Source: Luteibaculum oceani
Lineage (GTDB): Bacteria; Bacteroidota; Bacteroidia; Flavobacteriales_D; Luteibaculaceae
Direction of reading: 5' to 3'
Length of the DNA stretch: 64,000 nt
Assembly (NCBI RefSeq): GCF_007995015.1
Contig: NZ_VORB01000004.1
Coordinates: 124,001 to 188,000 of the forward strand
How positions within the stretch are numbered: the first letter of the stretch is position 1; each line of letters opens with the position of its first letter. A model generated the notes under the pieces. That model was not told the origin of the DNA, did no database searches, and saw only the letters and a list, made by a program, of their open reading frames with translations. Of the stretch, positions 1-9,286 are shown in pieces. The position numbers were made by a program, and so were the translations under genes.

Positions 1-82
1 TTATGCTATAAATTCTTTTGGAAAGATTTCTTGCCAAATTCCAGACTTCAAGTTTTTCAAAAGGGTAGCTGTGACCTTCCAT
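1..82 (-). CDS. four-helix-bundle (23S IVS-type) protein, N-terminal part, runs off the left edge
   Basis: Reading the minus strand from an ATG at 82-80 gives about 27 residues beginning MEGHSYPFEKLEVWNLA. The segment FEKLEVW is shared with the complete four-helix-bundle gene at 2498-2878, which has GFEKLEVWQ at the same place. This is the N-terminus of the family often called 23S rRNA intervening-sequence (S23) proteins; their cellular role is not settled. The rest of the gene lies outside the window. A short tandem repeat (ctcaactcaaca type, 103-131) precedes it, as with the other family members here. Confidence 0.75.
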   Translation of the reverse strand, partial: MEGHSYPFEKLEVWNLARNLSKRIYSI

Positions 83-445
83 TAATTACATTATCAGCGC
101 ACCTCAACTCAACAAATCCTCAACTCAACATGAAACACCCCGCCTTTGGCGTGGATACAGCTTCGCCTCCTCAGTCACATGTGATGCACGGCTAAGCAAG
201 CTTTTAGAATAATGAGTACTTTTTTTACTCAAGTGTATTCCTGGGTACGAATATGTGAAATTTTGTAAAGTGGACAAGGGGTTTGGGCGGATTTGTTTTT
301 TGGTTCGTCGATTATTTAGTTCGTAGGTGGTAGGTCGTAGCTGGTAGTTCGTAGTAAATAGCTCGTAGGTCGTAGGTGGTAGCTGGTAGGTATTAGCTGG
401 TAGGTCGTAGCTAGTAGCTAAACAGACCGATTACGGCAATTGACA
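83..445. repeat. intergenic region with minisatellites, a hairpin and a block shared with 6068-6150
   Basis: No gene is seen. Positions 103-131 hold two copies of a ctcaactcaaca-like unit. Positions 137-154 form a small hairpin (CCCGCC, ttt, GGCGTGG). Positions 153-245 resemble 6068-6150: both carry an acagcttcgcc/cctcagtc segment and then a GAG...CTC hairpin around a T-run. Positions 300-420 are a degenerate tandem repeat built on ggtagctggtaggtcgtag, similar to a short stretch at 6315-6340. Confidence 0.6.
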
Positions 446-622
446 TCAACTGGTTTTTATAGATTTTATCAATCCATTTAGCATTTTAGCTATTTCAATT
501 GCCTCCTGCTCAAGCTGATTTACCTTCTCAGCTGAAATCCAGTTTAATTTTTGTAATACCGTCAATAGTGTTACGGTTTCATATAAAGAACCTCTTGAGA
601 TATATAAAAAGTGAATAAACTC
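446..622 (-). pseudogene. C-terminal remnant of a four-helix-bundle (23S IVS-type) gene
   Basis: An open frame on the minus strand from 622 to a TGA at 448-446 encodes about 58 residues starting EFIHFLYISRGSLYET and ending in a helical tail. This resembles the second half of four-helix-bundle proteins of the S23 family (compare FFQIAFSSLMEVLNQL in the gene at 2498-2878). There is no start codon. An in-frame stop lies directly upstream (623-625), where composite repeat DNA begins. The simplest reading is a gene whose 5' half was lost when the adjacent repeat was inserted or rearranged. Confidence 0.65.
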
Positions 623-629
623 TTATTTC

Positions 630-865
630 TTATTCATTTTTCATTTTTTCCATCGATGAAAAAACGAAACAAAAAAATCTAGGGCTGCACCTCCCTCGCT
701 TATTCATCTTCAGAAATCCTAAGAAAGCCCTAAAAGGATTTCCTCAAGTCAAGGTCTTGAGTCTTCGACCCTGTCAATCTTTTGGTTTTCTAAGGATTTC
801 TTTTGATTCATTGCGCTCATGAGCTGATGCCCAACGTGCTCCGAAGAATGGAAATCGGAAAGGCG
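630..865. repeat. stem-loop repeat, copy A
   Basis: This copy shares with 6560-7910 a left block (T-rich, then gaaaaaacgaaacaaaaaaa and tctagg) and a central imperfect palindrome. The outer arms are 712-727 and 786-801 (agaaatccTaagaaag against ttttctaaggatttct). The middle arms pair ccTAAAAGGATT with AATCTTTTGG. The inner arms are ctcaag and cttgag. The loop holds gtcttcgaccctgtc, which is also present in copies C and D. No protein-coding signal is visible. Confidence 0.7.
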
Positions 866-1092
866 AATTTATTTTTCACTAAAAAGTACAAAGAGGTGCT
901 CCGAGTTTATTTTGAATTAGGGATGAGGAGATCAATGATGAAGCAATGAAGGACGGAATTTTTCTTTTCATCTATTTATCAATTCATCCTTTCATCAATT
1001 CATCTATTCATCAATTCATCTATTCATCTCGTTTAAAAAGTGTTTCAAGATCCACCCTAGATAAACACTAAACCAGTGAAGTTAGCTTGTGG
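866..1092. repeat. intergenic tail with a catc-type minisatellite
   Basis: No gene is seen. Positions 965-1030 are a degenerate tandem repeat of catctattcatcaattcatc units. This lies downstream of the cysN stop codon on the minus strand, and no clear terminator hairpin was found. Confidence 0.5.
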
Positions 1093-2361
1093 TTAACGGA
1101 TCATCCCCGCCGCTACTGTAGCATTACTACCCTCTTCTACTATAATGAAAGAGCCTGTATTTCGGTTTTTACTATACGGGTCGGCAGCGATGGGTTTGGC
1201 GAGGCGTAAGTTTACACGGCCAATTCCATTCTTTTCCAGCTTGCTACTTTCTTCGTTTACGTGGAAGGTGTTTACGTCAATTTCATGAACCAGACGCTTT
1301 ACCTTGCACATCACTTCGTTTCCGTTGTACATGAGGGTGTATTTCTTAGCTGGATTCATAGGACTATCTCCCATCCAACACAACATGGCATCTACATCTT
1401 GTATGCTCTCTGGCGTATTTTCTACCTTGGCTATAACATCTCCCCTGCCTATATCTATGTCGTCTTCTAATTCTATCGCAACCGACTGACCTGCAAATGC
1501 TTCTTCTACCTCCTGATCTAACAAGTGGATTTTTGCCACTATTGATTCCATTCCCGATGGTAACACTTTTACCTCATCTCCTTTTCGGATTACCCCACCA
1601 GCTATCCTTCCAGCATAACCACGGAAATCGTGATATTCGGTCTTGTGTGGTCGGATTACCGTTTGAACAGGAAGTCGGAAATCCCTTAAATTTTGATAAT
1701 TACTTACCGGCAAACTCTCTAAGGTATGCAAGAGCGTAGAGCCTTGATACCAGGTCATATTCTCTCCCCTTTCGACTACATTGTCTCCAACTAATGCTGA
1801 TATGGGTATAAAGCGGATATCTTGTATGGTCAGTTTGGATTCTAGCTCCTTAAATTGAGCAATAATGTTTTCATAAGCTTCCTCCTTATAATCCACAAGA
1901 TCCATCTTGTTTACACAAACAATAAGGTGAGGAATATTCAACAAAGAGGCTATAAAGGTGTGTCTTTTGGTTTGCTCCACTACCCCATTTCTAGCGTCGA
2001 TTAATATTATTGCCGCATTGGCTGTACTGGCTCCTGTAACCATATTACGGGTATACTGGATATGCCCAGGCGTATCGGCAATGATAAACTTGCGCTTAGG
2101 GGTGGAGAAATAACGGTAAGCAACGTCTATAGTAATTCCTTGCTCACGTTCATCTTTTAACCCGTCGGTTAACAAAGAAAGATCAATATGCTCCAAGCCT
2201 TTCTTCTTCGAGGTATTTTCTATAGAATCTAATTGATCCTGGAAGATGGATTTAGAATCGAATAGTAATCTACCGATTAGGGTTGATTTTCCGTCGTCGA
2301 CGGAGCCGGCGGTGGAAAAGCGAAGGAGATCGCGGTTTAGGTATGTGTTTACTTGTGACAT
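1093..2361 (-). CDS. cysN: sulfate adenylyltransferase, GTPase subunit
   Basis: CysN is the regulatory GTPase of ATP sulfurylase. It couples GTP hydrolysis to the formation of APS from ATP and sulfate by CysD. The 422 residues show the EF-Tu-like G domain: P-loop GSVDDGKST (19-27), DTPGH (96-100) and NKMD (151-154), followed by beta-barrel domains. The length fits a stand-alone CysN with no fused APS kinase. An ATG start sits at 2361. The partner cysD lies upstream on the same strand, but a four-helix-bundle gene and tandem repeats now separate the two, so co-transcription would have to cross about 760 bp. Cytoplasmic. Confidence 0.95.
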   Translation of the reverse strand: MSQVNTYLNRDLLRFSTAGSVDDGKSTLIGRLLFDSKSIFQDQLDSIENTSKKKGLEHIDLSLLTDGLKDEREQGITIDVAYRYFSTPKRKFIIADTPGHIQYTRNMVTGASTANAAIILIDARNGVVEQTKRHTFIASLLNIPHLIVCVNKMDLVDYKEEAYENIIAQFKELESKLTIQDIRFIPISALVGDNVVERGENMTWYQGSTLLHTLESLPVSNYQNLRDFRLPVQTVIRPHKTEYHDFRGYAGRIAGGVIRKGDEVKVLPSGMESIVAKIHLLDQEVEEAFAGQSVAIELEDDIDIGRGDVIAKVENTPESIQDVDAMLCWMGDSPMNPAKKYTLMYNGNEVMCKVKRLVHEIDVNTFHVNEESSKLEKNGIGRVNLRLAKPIAADPYSKNRNTGSFIIVEEGSNATVAAGMIR

Positions 2362-2375
2362 TTTAAATATTGTTT

Positions 2376-2466
2376 AGTGCTGATGATTGGTTGACGAATT
2401 GAGGGATTGACGAATTGAGGGATTGATGAATTGACGAATTGAGGAATTGACGAATTGAGGAATTGA
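2376..2466. repeat. minisatellite, ttgacgaattgagg units
   Basis: About six degenerate units of ttgacgaattgagg lie between cysN and the four-helix-bundle gene. The reverse complement of the core (caattcgtcag) recurs on the other side of that gene at 2985-3020, so the gene is bracketed by short inverted tandem repeats. Confidence 0.7.
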
Positions 2467-2497
2467 GTATGCTACGTTTTGATGCATTTCGGTATTC

Positions 2498-2878
2498 CTA
2501 CGATTTACTTTTGGCATAGCGATGTAAGGCATTTAATTTATTGGCTATTTCGTCAATAGTTGTTCTAATCTCGTACAATCTTTCGCCCTCTATATATTTT
2601 AATTTACTTGCTATTATTAATTGATTGAGAACTTCCATTAAACTAGAAAAGGCTATTTGAAAGAATCTAGCTTTATCTTTCCCCTCTCTACCATTTCCTT
2701 CAGCGATATTTGAAGAAATACTTACTGCAGCTCTTCGCAATTGTGAAACAAGTCCAAATTTCTCCGCATCTGGAAAGCTCCCTGTGACAGTATATATTTC
2801 AGTTACCAATTGAATACTTATCTGCCAAACTTCGAGTTTTTCAAATCCATACTCGTATACTTTTTTGTTGTTACTCAC
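2498..2878 (-). CDS. four-helix-bundle protein of the 23S IVS (S23) family
   Basis: The 126-residue product has the family signature: FEKLEVWQ near the N-terminus, then FPDAEKFGLVSQLRRAAVS and SNIAEGNGR around residues 35-65, then helices 3 and 4. Related proteins are encoded inside 23S rRNA intervening sequences in some bacteria, and the diversity-generating-retroelement protein Avd shares the fold. A cellular function is not established. The likely start is a GTG at 2878. The gene sits between cysN and cysD and is flanked by short tandem repeats whose cores are inverted relative to each other, suggesting insertion into a former cysDN operon. Confidence 0.85.
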   Translation of the reverse strand: MSNNKKVYEYGFEKLEVWQISIQLVTEIYTVTGSFPDAEKFGLVSQLRRAAVSISSNIAEGNGREGKDKARFFQIAFSSLMEVLNQLIIASKLKYIEGERLYEIRTTIDEIANKLNALHRYAKSKS

Positions 2879-2984
2879 TTGTCGATTTTACTATTCAAAG
2901 ACCCGTCAGTTTTTCAACCTCAAAAAAGCTTTACCCAAGGCTTGCATCCAAAACTCCGAAGTTTCACCGCGTAAAATTAACATC

Positions 2985-3118
2985 TCGCAATTCGTCAGTT
3001 TATCAGTTAGTCAATTCGTCAGCTTTCAAAACAGTCTACCAGTAAACCCAAAAATCTGTAAACGCATCGCTTGGACAAACCAATTCGCCAATCAGCCAAT
3101 TCGCTAATTAGCCACTTC
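2985..3118. repeat. minisatellite upstream of the four-helix-bundle gene
   Basis: Degenerate repeats of caattcgtcagtttatcag and caattcgccaatcagc fill the stretch between the four-helix-bundle gene and the cysD stop codon. The first type is the inverted complement of the 2376-2466 array. Confidence 0.6.
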
Positions 3119-3119
3119 G

Positions 3120-4019
3120 CTAGAAGTACCCTTCCTTCTTACGCTCTTCCATTGCGGCTTCGGAGCGTTTGTCGTCGGCGCGGCCGCCGCGTTCGGTTTG
3201 GCGGACTGCAGCTACTTCGGCTACGATTTTTTCGAGGGTATCGGCGTCGGATTCTACCGCTCCAGTAATGGTTAGATCACCCAAGGTGCGGAATCGGATT
3301 TTTTTATTTTCTACCTTCTCCCCTTCGCGCAAGGTTAGATATTCGGAATGTGCTAAAAACACCCCGTTTCGGTTCACTACATCGCGGTTGTGCGCAAAAT
3401 ACAAGCTTGGTAATTCTATATTCTCCAGTAGGATGTATTGCCAGATATCCATTTCCGTCCAGTTGGAAATTGGAAATACTCTAAAATGCTCCCCTACTGC
3501 TTTTTTACCGTTGTATATGTGCCAAAGCTCTGGTCGTTGGTTTTTTGGATCCCACTGACCAAACTCGTCGCGATGTGAGAAAAAACGTTCCTTGGCCCTT
3601 GCCTTTTCTTCGTCTCTTCTCCCCCCTCCCATACAGGCGTCGAATTGATTGCCTTCTATGGTTTCTAAAAGAGTTACAGATTGTGCTCTATTTCGGGATG
3701 CGTTAATTCCAGTTTCCTCGGAAACGGAACCGCTTTTGATACTCTCCTCAACGGATCCTACAATAAGATTAGCGGATAATTTCTCAACCAACTTATCTCT
3801 AAACTTCAGGGTTTCTGGGAAATTATGCCCCGTATCTATATGTACCAATGGAAAAGATAGATTCATTGGATACAAGGCTTTGTACGCCAAATGTGTTAGT
3901 ACGATACTGTCTTTTCCACCTGAAAATAGAATACAAGGGTTATCGAATTGAGCGAAGGTTTCTCGGATTACTTGAACTGCTTCGGCTTCTAGTTCGCGGA
4001 GGTGATTGTATTTGTACAT
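3120..4019 (-). CDS. cysD: sulfate adenylyltransferase, catalytic subunit
   Basis: CysD adenylates sulfate to APS with energy supplied through CysN. The 299-residue protein has the PP-loop SGGKDS (33-38) of the PAPS-reductase/ATP-sulfurylase fold, a central GGGRRDEEKARAKER segment and the C-terminal RxxERGGR region typical of CysD. An ATG start sits at 4019. Length and motifs are normal, so it is probably functional. Its downstream partner on this strand is cysN; upstream comes the DUF2061-CysC gene, beyond an oppositely oriented four-helix-bundle gene. Confidence 0.95.
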   Translation of the reverse strand: MYKYNHLRELEAEAVQVIRETFAQFDNPCILFSGGKDSIVLTHLAYKALYPMNLSFPLVHIDTGHNFPETLKFRDKLVEKLSANLIVGSVEESIKSGSVSEETGINASRNRAQSVTLLETIEGNQFDACMGGGRRDEEKARAKERFFSHRDEFGQWDPKNQRPELWHIYNGKKAVGEHFRVFPISNWTEMDIWQYILLENIELPSLYFAHNRDVVNRNGVFLAHSEYLTLREGEKVENKKIRFRTLGDLTITGAVESDADTLEKIVAEVAAVRQTERGGRADDKRSEAAMEERKKEGYF

Positions 4020-4021
4020 TT

Positions 4022-4112
4022 TTTGAGGTTTAGTGGTCAGTGGTTAGTGGTCAGTGGTTAGTAGTTAGTGGTTGAGTGGTTAGTGGTTAGTGGTTGAGTG
4101 GTTTGGTGATAA
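4022..4112. repeat. minisatellite, agtggttagtggtc units
   Basis: A string of degenerate 7-bp-based units (ttagtggtcagtgg, ttagtggttgagtgg) lies directly upstream of cysD. The same word recurs on the far side of the next gene (4515-4570), so these repeats bracket the plus-strand four-helix-bundle gene. Confidence 0.7.
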
Positions 4113-4161
4113 TTAGCATTTAGTTGTAGACGACTTATGCAAATTTTTAATATTTTAAAAT

Positions 4162-4527
4162 ATGAGTTCCCACAAAAACTTACGGGTTTACCAAGAATCC
4201 ATGGATTACGTAACCAAGATTTACGAGATAACTAAAACTTATCCTAACTCAGAGCTGTTCGGATTAACCAGCCAAACTAGGCGTGCCTGTGTCTCTATTC
4301 CACTGAATATTTCCGAAGGAGCAAGTCGAGGATCCACTAAAGATTTTTGCCGGTTTCTACGATATTCTCTTAGTTCTACGTCCGAAATAGATACTGCCCT
4401 AACCATTGCTAAAAACATCGAACTCATAGACGAGAAGCAATTAAATGAATTGATAATTGATCTGGTTTCATTACGAAAGAAGCTCATGGCCTTAATTAAT
4501 AGTCTTGAGAAAAAGTTGAGTGGTTAG
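4162..4527 (+). CDS. four-helix-bundle protein of the 23S IVS (S23) family
   Basis: The 121-residue product carries the family core YPNSELFGLTSQTRRACVSI and the motif LNISEGASRGS (about 30-60), then a long helical second half. It is only a distant paralog of the gene at 2498-2878. It is the one gene on the plus strand inside the minus-strand cys cluster. It is flanked on both sides by agtggttag-type minisatellites; the right-hand array overlaps its last codons. ATG start. Function unknown; a recent insertion is inferred from position and orientation. Confidence 0.85.
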   Translation: MSSHKNLRVYQESMDYVTKIYEITKTYPNSELFGLTSQTRRACVSIPLNISEGASRGSTKDFCRFLRYSLSSTSEIDTALTIAKNIELIDEKQLNELIIDLVSLRKKLMALINSLEKKLSG

Positions 4528-4645
4528 TTGTCAGTAGTTAGTAGTTAGTGGTTAGTAGTTAGTAGTTGGGTGTTATGGGATTATAACCATTGACCATTAA
4601 CCATTGACTATTGACCATTAACTATTGACCATTAACACCAACAAT
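4515..4645. repeat. minisatellite, agtagttagtggttag and attgaccattaacc units
   Basis: Two adjacent degenerate arrays: agtagttag-type units (4515-4570) that begin within the 3' end of the four-helix-bundle gene, and accattgaccattaacc-type units (4585-4645) with roughly the reverse-complement composition. No coding signal. Confidence 0.65.
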
Positions 4646-4659
4646 TCAACATTCAAATC

Positions 4660-5511
4660 CTAACCTTCCTCCGATAGCGCAATCTCTCTCCTAACCACCT
4701 CCAGTATTTCCTCCACACTTTGGTCTATGGATTTACCTTCGGTGTTGATATGAAGTTCTGGATTTTGGGGTCTTTCGAAGGGGGAGTCTATTCCGGTGAA
4801 GTTTTTTAACTCACCTGATCGAGCTTTTTTGTAAAGGCCTTTTACATCTCTTTGCTCACACACTTCTAATGGTGTATCCACAAAGATTTCGAAAAATCTG
4901 TCGTCCCCTACTATTTCGCGAGCCATTTGTCTATCCGCCTCGAAAGGGGAAATGAAACTGCACAACACCACAATTCCGGAGTCGGCAAACAATTTTGCAA
5001 TTTCCGATACCCGACGAATATTTTCTTTTCTACCTGCATCGGTAAAATCCAGGTCTTTATTTATTCCCAAACGGGTATTGTCTCCGTCCAACGCAAAGGT
5101 ATGCACCTTTAGTTCGTACAATTTTTCCTCCAAAGAATTGGCTATGGTAGACTTACCCGATCCACTCAAACCGCAAAACCAAAGTACCATAGACTTGTGC
5201 TTTTTATGGACCTGTCTTTTTTCTTCGTCTATTTTAAATGGGTGGCGAATTACGTTGTCTACCATGGTTTGAAATCTTCTTTTCTTAACTCCAAAATTAG
5301 TTCGGTACCAAATCCTTTCGTGAAAAAAATAGAGAATGATTTTGGTAAAAACTTCGAGGCCACCAATTTTCACTCCCGACATGGGGTTTCCGGTAACTAT
5401 CCATCCTAAAACCATAGTATCTATGGTTCCCACCACACGCCATGAAATGGTCTTGGCTATATGTCGTTTTAAGGACGGATCCTTTTTGAACTTTACAAAT
5501 AAATCGATCAT
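4660..5511 (-). CDS. cysC: DUF2061 domain fused to adenylyl-sulfate kinase
   Basis: The C-terminal two thirds is APS kinase, which phosphorylates APS to PAPS: Walker A GLSGSGKST (114-122), DGDNTR (142-147), and the FISPF segment whose Ser188 aligns with the active-site serine. Residues 13-75 form a DUF2061 domain (start RHIAKTISWRVVGTIDT, end FFHERIWYR), a small predicted two-helix membrane domain often found beside sulfate-assimilation genes. The fusion would tether PAPS synthesis to the inner membrane (inference). The start ATG overlaps the upstream regulator's stop codon as ATGA, so translation of the two is coupled. Confidence 0.92.
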   Translation of the reverse strand: MIDLFVKFKKDPSLKRHIAKTISWRVVGTIDTMVLGWIVTGNPMSGVKIGGLEVFTKIILYFFHERIWYRTNFGVKKRRFQTMVDNVIRHPFKIDEEKRQVHKKHKSMVLWFCGLSGSGKSTIANSLEEKLYELKVHTFALDGDNTRLGINKDLDFTDAGRKENIRRVSEIAKLFADSGIVVLCSFISPFEADRQMAREIVGDDRFFEIFVDTPLEVCEQRDVKGLYKKARSGELKNFTGIDSPFERPQNPELHINTEGKSIDQSVEEILEVVRREIALSEEG

Positions 5512-6035
5512 TCCTTATGCCAGAGCAATAAGTTAGCTTCACTTTTAAGTATGGGTTGTGCATCGTATATGGATGCATACACCGTGTAGGAAATGGTTTT
5601 ATTAAGCAGATGTTGAGCTGTTTTAATCAACTTCGTGAGTTCGGTCTCTATAACATCTCCAATTACTGCTATTTCCACCTCATCGCAATCAATACCATCT
5701 GCGAGTTTCCCGAGGAGGAATACACTTTCCAATCCGCCCAGCTTACTGGTTACCTTTTCTACCAACACATCTAAACCAACATGTTTGCGCACCAGCTGAT
5801 TAATCTCGTTATACAACGGATGTTGGGTATTTACAGTGTAGAATTTCTTGTTTCCATCGAGCTCTGAGGACAACATTTTGGCCTCTTCCAAACGATTTAA
5901 CTCCTTGCGTATGCCATTAGTACTTTCTTCAAACTCATTCTCGAGGGAGCGCAAGTACGCTTTGTTCCCAGGGTTGAGAAAGAACTTAAGCAGAATTTTA
6001 AGTCGGGTTTTAGAAGTAATAAGTGCCTCGATCAC
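5508..6035 (-). CDS. winged-helix DNA-binding protein with a C-terminal nucleotidyltransferase-like half
   Basis: The N-terminal part (IEALITSKTRLKILLKFF, then YLRSLENEFEESTNGIRKE) reads as an ArsR-like winged helix. The C-terminal half has a beta-alpha pattern (VFLLGKLADGIDCDEVEIA) resembling the degenerate nucleotidyltransferase-like domain seen in Bacteroidota regulators near polysaccharide genes. The open frame extends to a GTG at 6071, but similarity to such regulators suggests starting at the GTG at 6035 (175 residues). It overlaps cysC by four bases (ATGA), so it may regulate the sulfate-activation operon; no operator was identified. Confidence 0.7.
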   Translation of the reverse strand: MIEALITSKTRLKILLKFFLNPGNKAYLRSLENEFEESTNGIRKELNRLEEAKMLSSELDGNKKFYTVNTQHPLYNEINQLVRKHVGLDVLVEKVTSKLGGLESVFLLGKLADGIDCDEVEIAVIGDVIETELTKLIKTAQHLLNKTISYTVYASIYDAQPILKSEANLLLWHKE

Positions 6036-6067
6036 AGCGAGTAAGCAAGAAATCAACTGGTTGTAAG

Positions 6068-6150
6068 GCACAGCTTCGCCACCTCAGTCCCAAGCTGAAT
6101 TATCGGATAAAGGACAAATATGAGTATTTTTTTTGCTCGATTTGTGTAGG
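6068..6150. promoter_or_regulatory. block shared with 153-245, upstream of the sulfate operon
   Basis: On the minus strand this stretch leads into the wHTH-cysC genes. It shares with 153-245 the cacagcttcgcc/cctcagtc segment and a hairpin with GAG and CTC arms around a T-run (6130-6147). On the minus strand catatttg at 6115-6122 differs from the Bacteroidota -7 consensus TAnnTTTG by one base, but no matching -33 box was found. It could be a leader/promoter block or another repeat family. Confidence 0.35.
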
Positions 6151-6175
6151 GCGAGATGATTTTAATTTGGGTTGA

Positions 6176-6345
6176 GGAGGGGATGAGGGGATGAAGGGGT
6201 TAAGAGTTAAGTGTGAAGGGTTAGCGGTTAGTGGTTTAGTAGTCAATGGTTTACGGGTTTATGGGTTTATGGGGTGATGGGGTTATCAGTTGAAGGGGGG
6301 GGGGTAGCAATTAGTTCGTAGCTGGTAGGTGGTAGGAGGTATCGC
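6176..6345. repeat. degenerate G-rich tandem repeats with a G10 tract
   Basis: The stretch contains tggttagcggttag-type and gggtttatgggg-type repeats, a run of ten G at 6295-6304, and the tagctggtaggtggtagg word also found at 300-420. No gene is visible. Homopolymer G tracts of this length are prone to slippage. Confidence 0.55.
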
Positions 6346-6401
6346 CATGTTGTTAACGAAATCTCGCCAAATTCCGGGATTACTGCTACGGGTTTTTCGC
6401 G

Positions 6402-6445
6402 GTTATCGAGTGGTCACGCCATTTGCGTGGGTGTATCGAGATAAC
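6402..6445 (+). repeat. double-stem hairpin element, copy 1
   Basis: Outer stem GTTATC (6402-6407) pairs with GATAAC (6440-6445). The conserved GAGTG and TGTATCGA strands lie between the outer and inner stems. The inner stem is CACGC (6415-6419) with GCGTG (6425-6429). Confidence 0.75.
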
Positions 6446-6565
6446 ATAAGCGAAGTACTCTGCCATACTCCAGAACTGTCATTTCGAACGTAACGGAGTG
6501 AAGAGAGAAATCCCGTAAGAGCAGAACACTGCTCAATCACCATTGTAGGTACTCATCTATTTCTC

Positions 6566-6745
6566 TCATTTTCATTTTTTTCATTGATAAAAAAACGAAA
6601 CAAAAAAATCTAGGCCTAGACATTTCTTTTGTCATAGCTGGACGATAAACATAAGTGCGGCCAGGCGAGCTATCGCTTCCTGGTCTTACTAATGTTTATT
6701 CTACATCTATTTCCTCAGAAATCTATGGCCAAAGGGACGCACGGA
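6566..6745. repeat. stem-loop repeat, copy B (divergent stem)
   Basis: It has the same flanks as copies A, C and D, but the palindrome sequence is different: ATAAACAT...AGT...GGCCAGG pairs with CCTGGTC...ACT...ATGTTTAT (about 6645-6699), capped by GCGA/TCGC. It lacks the gtcttcgacc loop of the other copies and ends near a G9 tract (6754-6762). Confidence 0.7.
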
Positions 6746-6822
6746 CGGTTGTCGGGGGGGGGCTCGCTTTGTGGCTAACGGGATCCCGCTAATTGCGGGA
6801 TGACTGCTACCGGTTTTAAACG

Positions 6823-6869
6823 GTTATCGAGTGCCCAGGCGTAAAAAAGCCTAGGTGTATCGAGATAAC
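6823..6869 (+). repeat. double-stem hairpin element, copy 2
   Basis: Outer stem GTTATC (6823-6828) with GATAAC (6864-6869). Conserved GAGTG (6829-6833) and TGTATCGA (6856-6863). The inner stem is changed to CCAGGC (6835-6840) with GCCTAGG (6849-6855, one bulged A). Confidence 0.75.
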
Positions 6870-6984
6870 ATAAGCGAAGTACTCTGCCATACTCCAGAAC
6901 TGTCATTTCGAACGTAACGAAGTGAAGAGAGAAATCCCGTATGGGAGGTGCATTGCCCAATAATCTTTTTAGGTATCCTTATGT

Positions 6985-7200
6985 TTTTCTCACTTTACTT
7001 TTTTCATTACCAAAAAAGTAAACAAAAAGGCTAGGACTGCCTTTCTTCAGCTTGACTCACTTTTGAAGCATTAAGAAAATCTAAAAGGAACTCCAACAAC
7101 CTCGGTTTGTTGTCTTCGACCATGTCGTTCTTTTGATTTTCTAAATGCTTCTTCAGTTTATCTGCACCTCAGAAAGGATGTCCGCCAAGGACGCACGAAT
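6985..7200. repeat. stem-loop repeat, copy C
   Basis: A TACTTTTTT/AAAAAAGTA hairpin is followed by ctagg and a long palindrome. The left arm at 7065-7091 (gaagcattaagaaaat...) pairs with the right arm at 7127-7151 (gttcttttgattttct...) through about 24 positions. The inner stem is CAACAA/TTGTTG. The loop carries gtcttcgaccatgtc. Compared with copies A and D the paired bases have changed on both sides. Confidence 0.75.
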
Positions 7201-7384
7201 AGTAATCGAAGGGAGGAGTCGAAATGGTTAACGGGATCTCTCCTATCGTCGAGATGACAGGGTTGCTCAAAGGCGGAGGAAGAAGCCAAGCTACAAAGCT
7301 GTCATTTCGAACGGAACGGAGTGTAGAGAGAAATCCCGAATGGGAGGGGCATTGCCCATAAACATTTCTGTAATCTTTAGTTTT

Positions 7385-7600
7385 TCTCACTTTACTTTTT
7401 TCATTACCAAAAAAGTAAACAAAAAGTCTAGGGCTGCAGATCCCTCTCTCATTCATCTTCAGAAATCCTTAGAAAGACCTAAAAGGATTTCCCCAAGCCT
7501 GGGTCTTGTGTCTTCGACCCTGTCAATCTTTTGGTTTTCTATGGATTTCTTTTGATTCATTTCGATCTTGATCTGATGCCCAGAAGGACGCACGAACGAT
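7385..7600. repeat. stem-loop repeat, copy D
   Basis: Arms 7461-7476 and 7535-7550 (agaaatccttagaaag with ttttctatggatttct), middle stem ctaaaaggatt/aatcttttgg, inner CAAG/CTTG, loop gtcttcgaccctgtc. The T-rich hairpin at the left matches copy C (TACTTTTTT type) while the palindrome matches copy A, so copies appear mosaic. Confidence 0.75.
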
Positions 7601-7674
7601 TGGAGGAGGGGTGAATCGCGGTGTTGTGTACGGGATCCTGCCTAATACGGGATGACAGCTGCGGGTTTAATACG

Positions 7675-7718
7675 GTTATCGAGTGCACACGCCACAAGCG
7701 TGGGTGTATCGAGATAAC
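7675..7718 (+). repeat. double-stem hairpin element, copy 3
   Basis: Outer stem GTTATC (7675-7680) with GATAAC (7713-7718). GAGTG and TGTATCGA are conserved. The inner stem is CACGC (7688-7692) with GCGTG (7698-7702). Confidence 0.75.
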
Positions 7719-7897
7719 ATAGGCAGAGGATTTATCCTTGTTACAAAGCTGTCATTCCGAGCGTAACGGAGTGAAGAGAGAAATCCCGTATGAGAGACAC
7801 ATTGCCCATAAACATTTCTGTAATCTTTAGTTTTTCTCATTTTCATTTTTTTCATTGATAAAAAAACGAAACAAAAAAATCTAGGCCTAGACATTTC

Positions 7898-7930
7898 TTT
7901 GCTCAAAACCCAGTTGGCTTTCTATTTTTG
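7898..7930 (+). promoter_or_regulatory. Bacteroidota-type promoter of the polysaccharide operon
   Basis: A -33 box TTTG (7898-7901) is followed after 21 bases by a perfect -7 box TATTTTTG (7923-7930, consensus TAnnTTTG). The upxY ATG lies 38 bp further on. The -33 box is located at the truncated end of the last repeat unit (acatttctttg), so the repeat supplies part of this promoter. Confidence 0.65.
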
Positions 7931-7968
7931 CTAATTATTCCCGAACCTACAATACCGACAATTTGGTA

Positions 7969-8469
7969 ATGAGTAACCCGAGTCAGAATGATAACAAGCA
8001 ATGGATGGCGGTGTATGTACGCTCTCGAAATGAGAAAAAAGTACAGCTTCGATTAGAGATGCAAGGTATAGAAGCCTATGCTCCCGTACAAGAAGTAAAA
8101 CGCCAGTGGAGCGATCGAGTTAAAAAGGTAAAGATCCCAGTAATTCCATCTTATGTTTTTGTTCGGACAGATGAGCGAGAGCGCCAAAAAATATTGCAGG
8201 ACCCGGCCGTTATGAATTTCGTTTTTTGGCTGGGAAAACCAGCCATTATTCGTGATGAAGAAATAAATAGAATCAAGTTTATTTTAAAGGAAAAGGACTT
8301 AGACGAGGAAATAAAATTTGAGCAACTCCAAGCTGGGGATAACGTTGAAATTAAATCCGGGGCTTTTTCAGGTGAAATTGCGGAGGTATTGGAAGACCGA
8401 AAAAGTGAAGTAACAGTGATCCTAAAGAGCCTGGGTGTAAAATTGACTGTATCTAAAATTGTTTTATAA
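7969..8469 (+). CDS. UpxY/NusG-type transcription antiterminator
   Basis: The 166-residue protein has an N-terminal NGN domain (WMAVYVRSRNEKKV at the start, then a VIPSYVFVRTDE segment) and a C-terminal KOW domain (LQAGDNVEIKSGAFSGEIAE). It resembles UpxY-type NusG paralogs, which in Bacteroides act as first genes of capsule loci and prevent premature termination in that operon. It is followed by polysaccharide genes on the same strand, which supports that role. ATG 7969 was preferred over the in-frame TTG at 7963. Not the housekeeping NusG, since it starts a polysaccharide operon and lacks secE or ribosomal-protein neighbours. Confidence 0.85.
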   Translation: MSNPSQNDNKQWMAVYVRSRNEKKVQLRLEMQGIEAYAPVQEVKRQWSDRVKKVKIPVIPSYVFVRTDERERQKILQDPAVMNFVFWLGKPAIIRDEEINRIKFILKEKDLDEEIKFEQLQAGDNVEIKSGAFSGEIAEVLEDRKSEVTVILKSLGVKLTVSKIVL

Positions 8470-8530
8470 CCCCCTAAAGCTACATTTCCCACTTTTTACC
8501 TGTCCACCTTTAACTTTCCACTATAAAATC

Positions 8531-9286
8531 ATGACAAACATTCAACTAATAGAAATTGCTAAAAAGGCCGCAAAGGCAGCAGGTAAAGAAATCATAGAAA
8601 TCTATGAAACTGGTGACTTTTCTATAGAAGCAAAGGAAGATAACTCTCCATTAACCATCGCAGATCAGGCCGCGCACAATATTATTATTCAACATTTAAA
8701 AGAAACAAATCTTCCCGTTTTAAGTGAGGAGGGTCGTGATATTCCGTATTCAGAGCGAAGTGCATGGAATAAATTTTGGATGGTAGATCCTTTGGATGGA
8801 ACAAAAGAGTTTATAAAAAAGAATGGTGAGTTTACGGTAAACATTGCCTTAATCGAAAATCAAAAGCCGATTCACGGAGTGGTTTACGCACCGGTGTTGG
8901 ATAAAATGTATTTCACTACCGATGGTGGCGCATCTATGCTAGAAGGAGAGGTTGAGACTAAATTGAACTCGAATCCGTATGAAGAAATTAAAAACATCGT
9001 AGCCTCTCGTTCACACAAATCTCCAGAAACAGAGGAAGTTTTGGCAAAATACCCCAATGCCAAGGTGCTTTCAATGGGCTCCTCCCTAAAGTTTATGCTA
9101 CTCGCTGAAGGAAAAGCGCAGTTATATCCCCGATTTGCCCCTACCATGGAATGGGATACTGCTGCTGCTCATGCTGTTTTGAGTGCTTTAAATTACTCCG
9201 TTAAAAATCCAGAAGGCCAAGAATTACGATACAACAAAGAAAACTTGTTGAATCCATTTTTTGTGGCGAAAGGGATGAAGGGATGA
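8531..9286 (+). CDS. cysQ: 3'(2'),5'-bisphosphate nucleotidase (PAP phosphatase)
   Basis: CysQ dephosphorylates PAP, the by-product of PAPS use, to AMP. The 251-residue protein belongs to the inositol-monophosphatase fold: EEG (66-68), DPLDGT (86-91) and EWDTAAA (from 207) are the Mg2+/Li+-site motifs. The start is ATG 8531, 61 bp after upxY; the longer open frame to 8459 has no family counterpart. Being placed in a polysaccharide operon beside cysC/cysD/cysN, and with no PAPS reductase in view, it most likely clears PAP made by sulfotransferases. Cytoplasmic. Confidence 0.92.
   Translation: MTNIQLIEIAKKAAKAAGKEIIEIYETGDFSIEAKEDNSPLTIADQAAHNIIIQHLKETNLPVLSEEGRDIPYSERSAWNKFWMVDPLDGTKEFIKKNGEFTVNIALIENQKPIHGVVYAPVLDKMYFTTDGGASMLEGEVETKLNSNPYEEIKNIVASRSHKSPETEEVLAKYPNAKVLSMGSSLKFMLLAEGKAQLYPRFAPTMEWDTAAAHAVLSALNYSVKNPEGQELRYNKENLLNPFFVAKGMKG

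Follow-up and report, generated by a model that had tools for sequence, protein, structure and literature searches.

Results

Repeat array and its surroundings

The window analysed here is a stretch of 64,000 nucleotides from Luteibaculum oceani (C4:124001-188000; the genome comprises 2.92 Mb in 42 contigs), and its first 8 kb carry several copies of a composite repeat, each combining a short T-rich hairpin and A-run linker with a long palindrome (Table 1). Among the neighbouring genes are two for 23S rRNA-intervening-sequence-type proteins (PF05635; 2498-2878 on the minus and 4162-4527 on the plus strand), which are surrounded by short minisatellites, e.g., TTAGTGG and GAATTGAG. A NusG-family gene (7963-8469, plus strand; PF02357, 6.5e-19), possibly encoding an RfaH/UpxY-type antiterminator, begins about 50 bp past the end of the array, and the genes downstream of it resemble sugar or glycosyl-transfer functions. 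Degenerate 7-bp repeats of type GTAGCTGGTAG occupy positions 317-433, and a second array in the same genome has them alongside too.

An earlier note on this DNA described three copies (A, C and D) that share one type of palindrome and a fourth (B) with an unrelated one, and all were recovered both by direct reading and by a repeat search. The unit length of 410-440 bp given there needs correcting: a 134-nt repeat family recurs at start-to-start distances of 424, 399 and 450. The palindromes had been drawn too short, at 60-90 bp; in copies A to D their first base is the G of an invariant CTAG and their last a closing C. Variation of the T-rich hairpin was described correctly, with TTTACTTTTTT/AAAAAAGTAAA in copies C and D and TTTCATTTTTTT/AAAAAAACGAAA in copy B.

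Table 1. Positions in the window of the pseudoknot cores, long hairpins and further modules of the array (R1, covariance model of the core)
Feature	Position	Strand	Evidence
Copy A pseudoknot core (T/A stem, loop, A-run linker, CTAG)	637..683	- (fold strand)	R1 match C4:124637-124683, 3.2e-9
Copy A variable long hairpin (GGGC...GCCC)	682..832	-	Sequence; alignment A3 and pair counts
Copy B pseudoknot core (loop CATTGAT vs linker ATCTAG)	6568..6614	-	R1 match 1.9e-9 (one of the sequences used to build R1)
Copy B hairpin, unrelated sequence (GGCC...GGCC)	6613..6730	-	Fold -44.9 (plus) / -39.4 (minus) kcal/mol
Copy C pseudoknot core (loop CATTACC vs linker GGCTAG)	6992..7035	-	R1 match 3.7e-6
Copy C variable long hairpin (GGAC...GTCC)	7034..7183	-	Alignment A3 and pair counts
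Copy D pseudoknot core	7389..7432	-	R1 match 1.3e-6
Copy D variable long hairpin (GGGC...GCCC)	7431..7581	-	Alignment, pair counts, fold energy
Fifth copy, B-type core, hairpin truncated at ~7905	7839..7885	-	R1 match 1.9e-9 and sequence
Array module GTCATTTCGAACG...GAGAAATCCCG	6478..6516; also 6902-6940, 7301-7338, 7751-7789	.	Sequence
Array module GGTTATCGAG...TCGAGATAAC	6401..6446; also 6822-6869, 7674-7719	.	Sequence, repeat search

The note's reading supposed relatives of the array elsewhere in the genome, and these exist, since further copies of its units form the second array at C4:91,844-100,282; yet all copies are confined to one region. A scan of the L. oceani genome with R1, a covariance model of the core built on 25 sequences and 12 pairs, returned ten core copies, on one strand and all within C4:91,988-131,885 (about 40 kb), and the 12-mer GAGAAATCCCGT of one array module occurs nine times in the genome, on both strands and always at C4:93-132 kb. 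The minus-strand genes between the two arrays encode glycosyltransferases, an epimerase, an asparagine synthase and an ABC transporter of the Wzm/Wzt-like type (Pfam matches at 1e-8 for 8 of the 10 proteins scanned there). That the core copies share a single region and orientation points to local duplication and exchange in L. oceani, as opposed to independent insertion: recombination between repeats around this polysaccharide cluster could have amplified them locally, and could likewise have mixed the palindrome types.

Distribution across bacteria

When relatives were searched with unit D, 10 of 100 genomes matched at E <= 0.001, L. oceani included; the other nine matches are weak: several comprise the T-rich flank alone, in places with other palindromes after it, and some lie inside genes. 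A core pattern (TACTTTTTN{3,22}AAAAAGTAAVCAAAAAN{0,3}CTAG) found at least 119 stretches in GTDB genomes. Among the matches listed (80 titles), most are from Bacteroidota of many orders and three from Pseudomonas, the list also including MAGs of Burkholderiales, Oscillospiraceae and Elusimicrobia and one SR1 MAG (MAG names may be wrong). After removal of one overlap, 127 core matches were used, and 119 of them lie clear of any ORF of at least 120 aa. With R1, the core was detected in at least 14 of 247 Bacteroidota genomes, L. oceani among them (24 candidates scored per genome), which indicates a patchy spread. Oceanihabitans has a tandem array of its own, with units of about 565 bp and other palindromic modules, so the mosaic layout recurs.

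Covariation in the long hairpin

If the stem bases of the palindromes change together, as the earlier note proposed, pairing should survive the divergence of the copies. In an alignment of six A/C/D-type copies (A, C and D with D2-D4 of the second array; alignment A3, 154 columns), RNAalifold gave 52 consensus pairs, and for 16 of them at least one copy has both bases replaced with pairing kept; in the closing stem, for example, GGGC/GCCC becomes GGAC/GTCC. Because A, D and D2-D4 are closely related, most of these events come from copy C against the rest, and some pairs of the copy C hairpin are gapped or broken. Independent drift of the two arms was not seen in these copies. The hairpin of copy D with its core folds on the minus strand at -60.2 kcal/mol, as compared with -43.2 (sd 4.2) for 200 shuffles (z -4.0). 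The hairpin of copy B is unrelated in sequence and shares its layout with the others, starting at the G of CTAG and ending in C.

The same dependence between arms extends to other genomes. The first nine nucleotides of the arm after CTAG find a downstream partner matching at 8-9 of 9 positions in 45 of 110 loci, compared with about 9 of 110 when foreign arms are used (17 of the 127 matches were left out for N or short flanks). Duplex energies averaged -14.9 kcal/mol for own arms and -11.2 for foreign arms at 114 loci (13 of 127 left out on the same grounds), and the best duplex nearly always started at the G of CTAG. Since the hairpin arms vary between genomes, the covariation spans a wide range.

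A loop-linker pseudoknot

To judge from its sequences, the T-rich hairpin with the linker CAAAAAnnCTAG is an H-type pseudoknot: the loop is complementary to the linker, which lies 3' of the hairpin, and the two change in a compensatory manner. Full 6-bp pairings occur as CTTGAT/ATCAAG, CTTGAC/GTCAAG and CTTGAA/TTCAAG, and CATTGAT/ATCTAG and CATTGCC/GGCTAG form 3 + 2 pairs around a mismatch. Proteobacterial and viral-contig forms, which were retrieved by a pattern that leaves the loop free, use other letters (GTGGC/GCCAC, CGTG/CACG, CCGC/GCGG, TCGCC/GGCGA, CGGA/TCCG); two of the viral-contig cases, L233 and L235, are weak, with at most three complementary bases. The hairpin stem itself extends beyond the search pattern, in that the bases just before TTAC and just after GTAA are paired with each other in 106 of the 127 matches, in three forms (G-C 37, C-G 35, T-A 34).

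Contiguous loop-linker complementarity of at least 4 nt is present in 17 of 106 distinct combinations (shuffled mean 4.5, maximum 10, 1000 shuffles) and of at least 3 nt in 56 of 106 (shuffled mean 31.9, maximum 45, 300 shuffles); the 50 combinations with fewer than three contiguous complementary bases count against a knot. When the knot is included in the alignment (A4, 25 sequences), 93.9% of cells are paired, and the knot covariation score is 0.271, compared with 0.083 for shuffled (0 of 500) and at most 0.073 for slid alignments, though the core sequences are partly related and p values are therefore overstated. In the commonest class (CATT.../...CTAG), S1 has just 3 + 2 pairs, with a mismatch and a bulge, which likewise counts against the knot; 16 of the 25 aligned core sequences lack the pair at columns 6-28.

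Read 5' to 3' on the minus strand, the element would begin with the long hairpin, variable in sequence and with a fixed closing pair, and continue into the H-type pseudoknot. The order of parts in the knot is the 5' arm of S1, L1 (UUUUUG), the 5' arm of S2, the 3' arm of S1 (in the loop) and the 3' arm of S2, S1 being assigned to CUAGAU with the apical loop AUCAAUG, and S2 to NUUACUUUUU/AAAAAGUAAN.

Co-variation of a third strand

In H-type knots, L1 runs beside and parallel to the purine arm of S2, which is the geometry of a pyrimidine-motif major-groove triple. The U-rich L1 could here lie along the S2 purine arm as the third strand of such a helix, forming U.A-U triples and, at a stem G, C+.G-C. 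From the parallel arrangement it is predicted that a stem G goes with a C in L1, i.e., with a G in the plus-strand linker. Searches with patterns that had N at both places found A with A in 17 of 17 cases, in 7 of 395 Bacteroidota genomes, and G with G in 10 of 10, half of these from 3 of 398 Pseudomonadota genomes (five places) and half from viral contigs (five stretches). No discordant case occurred among these 27 from Bacteroidota, Pseudomonadota and viral contigs; the concordance has a Fisher probability of 1.2e-7 if they are independent, and they are partly dependent (six L. oceani copies, four from genome G832 and three from G742). A reversed control pattern appeared once among the Bacteroidota matches listed and had no match in one search of the Pseudomonadota and viral-contig set. 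In one case (L234), AAAAGAAA in the stem is accompanied by its mirror AAAGAAAA in the linker, an asymmetry that fixes the parallel register. On this third-strand co-variation in parallel register, the knot looks like a three-stranded helix of U.A-U and C+.G-C triples.

Strand of the fold, and RNA or DNA

Mismatches in the knot distinguish the two strands. In 38 distinct stems, those kept for having AAAA arms, there are 14 A.C mismatches on the plus strand (equivalent to G.U on the minus) as against 2 G.T (p = 0.004); because V could be only A, C or G in the core pattern, loci retrieved by it could not show a G.T with V = T at the outermost position, and without that position the counts are 11 and 0. 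S2 is 98.0% paired on the minus and 96.0% on the plus strand, and most copies of the Pseudomonas form retain a TCAC/GTAA pair, a G.U on the minus strand.

That the family lacks a name in standard lists, as the earlier note suspected, agrees with Rfam 15, which has no model covering the fold, and its structured nature with the covariation both within the array and across genomes. Window positions 1-9000 had no Rfam match at E<=1; ten loci with the core gave tRNA only, and five loci gave ncS54 away from the core, Bp1_684 below its cut-off, and no gathering-score match to the core. Bp1_684 (RF02421), a Burkholderia sRNA candidate described as validated by RT-PCR (PMC3521395, in excerpt), aligns at 3 of 3 places of the Burkholderiales form, immediately 3' to the pseudoknot on the minus strand, with scores of 31.7, 27.0 and 21.1 against a cut-off of 44. 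On the strand of the knot, its model reaches from within the 3' arm of S2 out into the 3' flank, and differs in that it does not cover the pseudoknot. Together, the strand bias of the knot and the Bp1_684 match favour the minus strand, which probably acts as RNA.

The long hairpin has no such bias. A symmetric alignment of 37 hairpins (from 56, after removing duplicates by arm and length) contains 10 G.T and 8 A.C mismatches, and on the plus strand two G.U pairs are conserved in alignment A3; the minus strand folds better in 29 of the 37, with base composition as a confounder. T.A-T triples and G.T pairs are open to DNA too, which counts against an RNA reading, and a strand bias of the knot would fit one DNA strand equally. 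The fold might thus act as single-stranded DNA, its shape being recognised by a single-strand transposase or recombinase (HUH or attC-like) that moves the element while the sequence drifts freely; the dispersed copies, the differing hairpin sequences above a fixed CTAG/CTTG/CAAG foot and the unbiased long hairpin are all in keeping with this.

Genomic position, spread and mobiliser

The earlier note had suggested a REP-associated tyrosine transposase (RAYT), but the sole Y1_Tnp match in L. oceani is two pieces of a broken gene (C1:154239-154528; two frames, with the middle of the profile missing), Y1_Tnp is absent from 5 of 20 genomes carrying the core, and the CTAG form of the core (pattern AAVCAAAAA..CTAG) was found at 0 of 32 Y1_Tnp loci with flanks of up to 1.5 kb. 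RAYT was rejected as mobiliser on these grounds; what stands of the note's interpretation is the structured, unnamed family and the dispersed element. A protein encoded beside the element was likewise rejected: around 119 loci, the largest recurrent cluster consists of 15 ORFs at 14 loci, at a median of 2.4 kb from the core, and its displayed ORF reads as an ABC transporter, with no transposase among the 14 ORF clusters listed. A small GIY-YIG nuclease ORF (L011:6519-6806) lies in the second array, and its family was rejected as a partner after a single tblastn match in the 119 loci. With no Y1 transposase linked to the core, no mobiliser-like protein family recurring near it, and arrays in an Oceanihabitans genome without any Y1_Tnp match, action as single-stranded DNA seems to us unlikely, though it deserves serious attention.

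Copies are also spread outside L. oceani. In Pseudomonas, at least six matches were present in 18 of 59 genomes (1,400-base query with one element; 6 candidates scored per genome), and at two element-free sites (L190, L191) the flank matches are about 145 and 152 bp apart as against 778 in the query. The flanks at these two sites are too diverged to have given base-exact ends; 21 Pseudomonas copies all end sharply on the left near ATATCC, and the basic unit corresponds to 465-790 of the query. In one Saprospiraceae genome, the core lies within an element with 20-bp terminal inverted repeats (GTGTGTATAACAAATTGCAC), one copy of which has an apparent 8-9 bp target duplication, AATTCTGA(A). The Pseudomonas copies and element-free sites and this Saprospiraceae element support, for genomes other than L. 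oceani, the proposal of a dispersed and probably non-autonomous element. A TIR/MITE as the general carrier was rejected for most loci: a spanning inverted repeat scoring >=14 was found at just 9 of 103, most of these being other repeats.

One might then suppose that these are ordinary repeats of the REP/BIME/MITE type and that the folds are functionless by-products of palindromic ends, as the mosaic arrays with other palindromic modules in L. oceani, Oceanihabitans and Pseudomonas and the TIR element with its duplication would allow. The rarity of spanning inverted repeats speaks against this, and neutral by-products would not be expected to conserve a loop, a linker and triple-type co-variation across phyla, making it an improbable account.

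Position relative to genes raises a further alternative. Gaps between convergent genes are enriched for the core (26 of 78 vs. 58 of 278; Fisher p = 0.034), as might be expected of a two-way transcription terminator or insulator in which the minus-strand hairpin precedes a U-run, and at the Pseudomonas carrier locus the element follows an intrinsic terminator. However, six bases separate the hairpin from the U-run, a terminator needs neither the conserved loop-linker pairing nor the G-G co-variation, and tolerated insertions also show a convergent bias, as do other Pseudomonas repeats (PMC2718517, in excerpt); we give termination little chance of being the explanation.

Discussion

On the covariation, the conserved fold is real and spread over many bacteria, and in L. 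oceani it is carried by a local array. Our fuller interpretation, to which we assign an even chance, is that each copy in the array belongs to a dispersed, non-autonomous element; its minus strand, probably in the form of RNA, would fold into a hairpin and a triple-helix pseudoknot. By analogy with the triple helices of eukaryotic transposon RNAs, the knot may protect or define the 3' side of transcripts that cross the element, and copies may spread in trans via the machinery of other elements. Certainty falls from the triple helix to the RNA nature, from there to protection, and again to mobilisation; secondary structure and knot rest on covariation.

In the telomerase RNA pseudoknot, as in the ENEs of viral, plant and lncRNA transcripts, a U-rich strand occupies the major groove of an A-U stem. 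The element described here differs in being an H-type knot that belongs to bacterial repeats, follows a variable hairpin in the 5' to 3' direction and involves no poly(A) tail. ENEs are present in plant transposon RNAs, and that of Arabidopsis Evade increases mobility (PMC12501189, in excerpt). A bolder version of our interpretation, which we put forward tentatively and regard as somewhat doubtful, is that these repeats represent an unnamed, phylum-crossing class encoding an RNA with a telomerase- or ENE-like knot and a hairpin of free sequence, the knot stabilising the transcript or marking it for copying. If true, the stability elements of eukaryotic transposons would have a counterpart in bacteria.

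Bacterial intergenic repeats are commonly regarded as simple palindromes. Conservation, all the way from Bacteroidota to Pseudomonas, of a fold that has loop-linker pairing and triple-type co-variation suggests a common function or a common mobiliser, hitherto missed because the sequence of the element is short, AT-rich and free to drift, and the fold offers both a concrete structure for probing and a search motif for further copies. Literature searches with exact core strings returned no relevant paper, and searches on repeat families of bacteria that contain hairpins or triple-helix pseudoknots yielded none either.

Several known systems share single features with the element. Integron attC sites have folds conserved in shape and free in sequence, and the arrays differ from them in lacking gene cassettes; Neisseria NIME arrays are, like those described here, mosaics of repeats. 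A further comparison is with two Pseudomonas fluorescens repeats (PMC2718517, in excerpt), R178, of 101 bp with an internal 11-bp inverted repeat, and R200, whose 320 bp are close to the basic unit; they come from the genus of the Pseudomonas copies and, compared by description only, possibly represent the Pseudomonas form. REP/BIME sequences with their RAYT are also intergenic, palindromic, dispersed and mosaic, and have a short fixed tetranucleotide at the foot of the hairpin, whereas the present element is much larger, possesses a pseudoknot and an A-run linker, and has no linked RAYT. The tags differ as well, CTAG/CTTG/CAAG here versus the GTAG/CGTC that PMC3733652 names in its title for REPs. 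In several Pseudomonas genomes, two elements stand close together in opposite orientation (e.g., G130:C1:1117071-1118340), arranged head-to-head like BIMEs (L199-L201).
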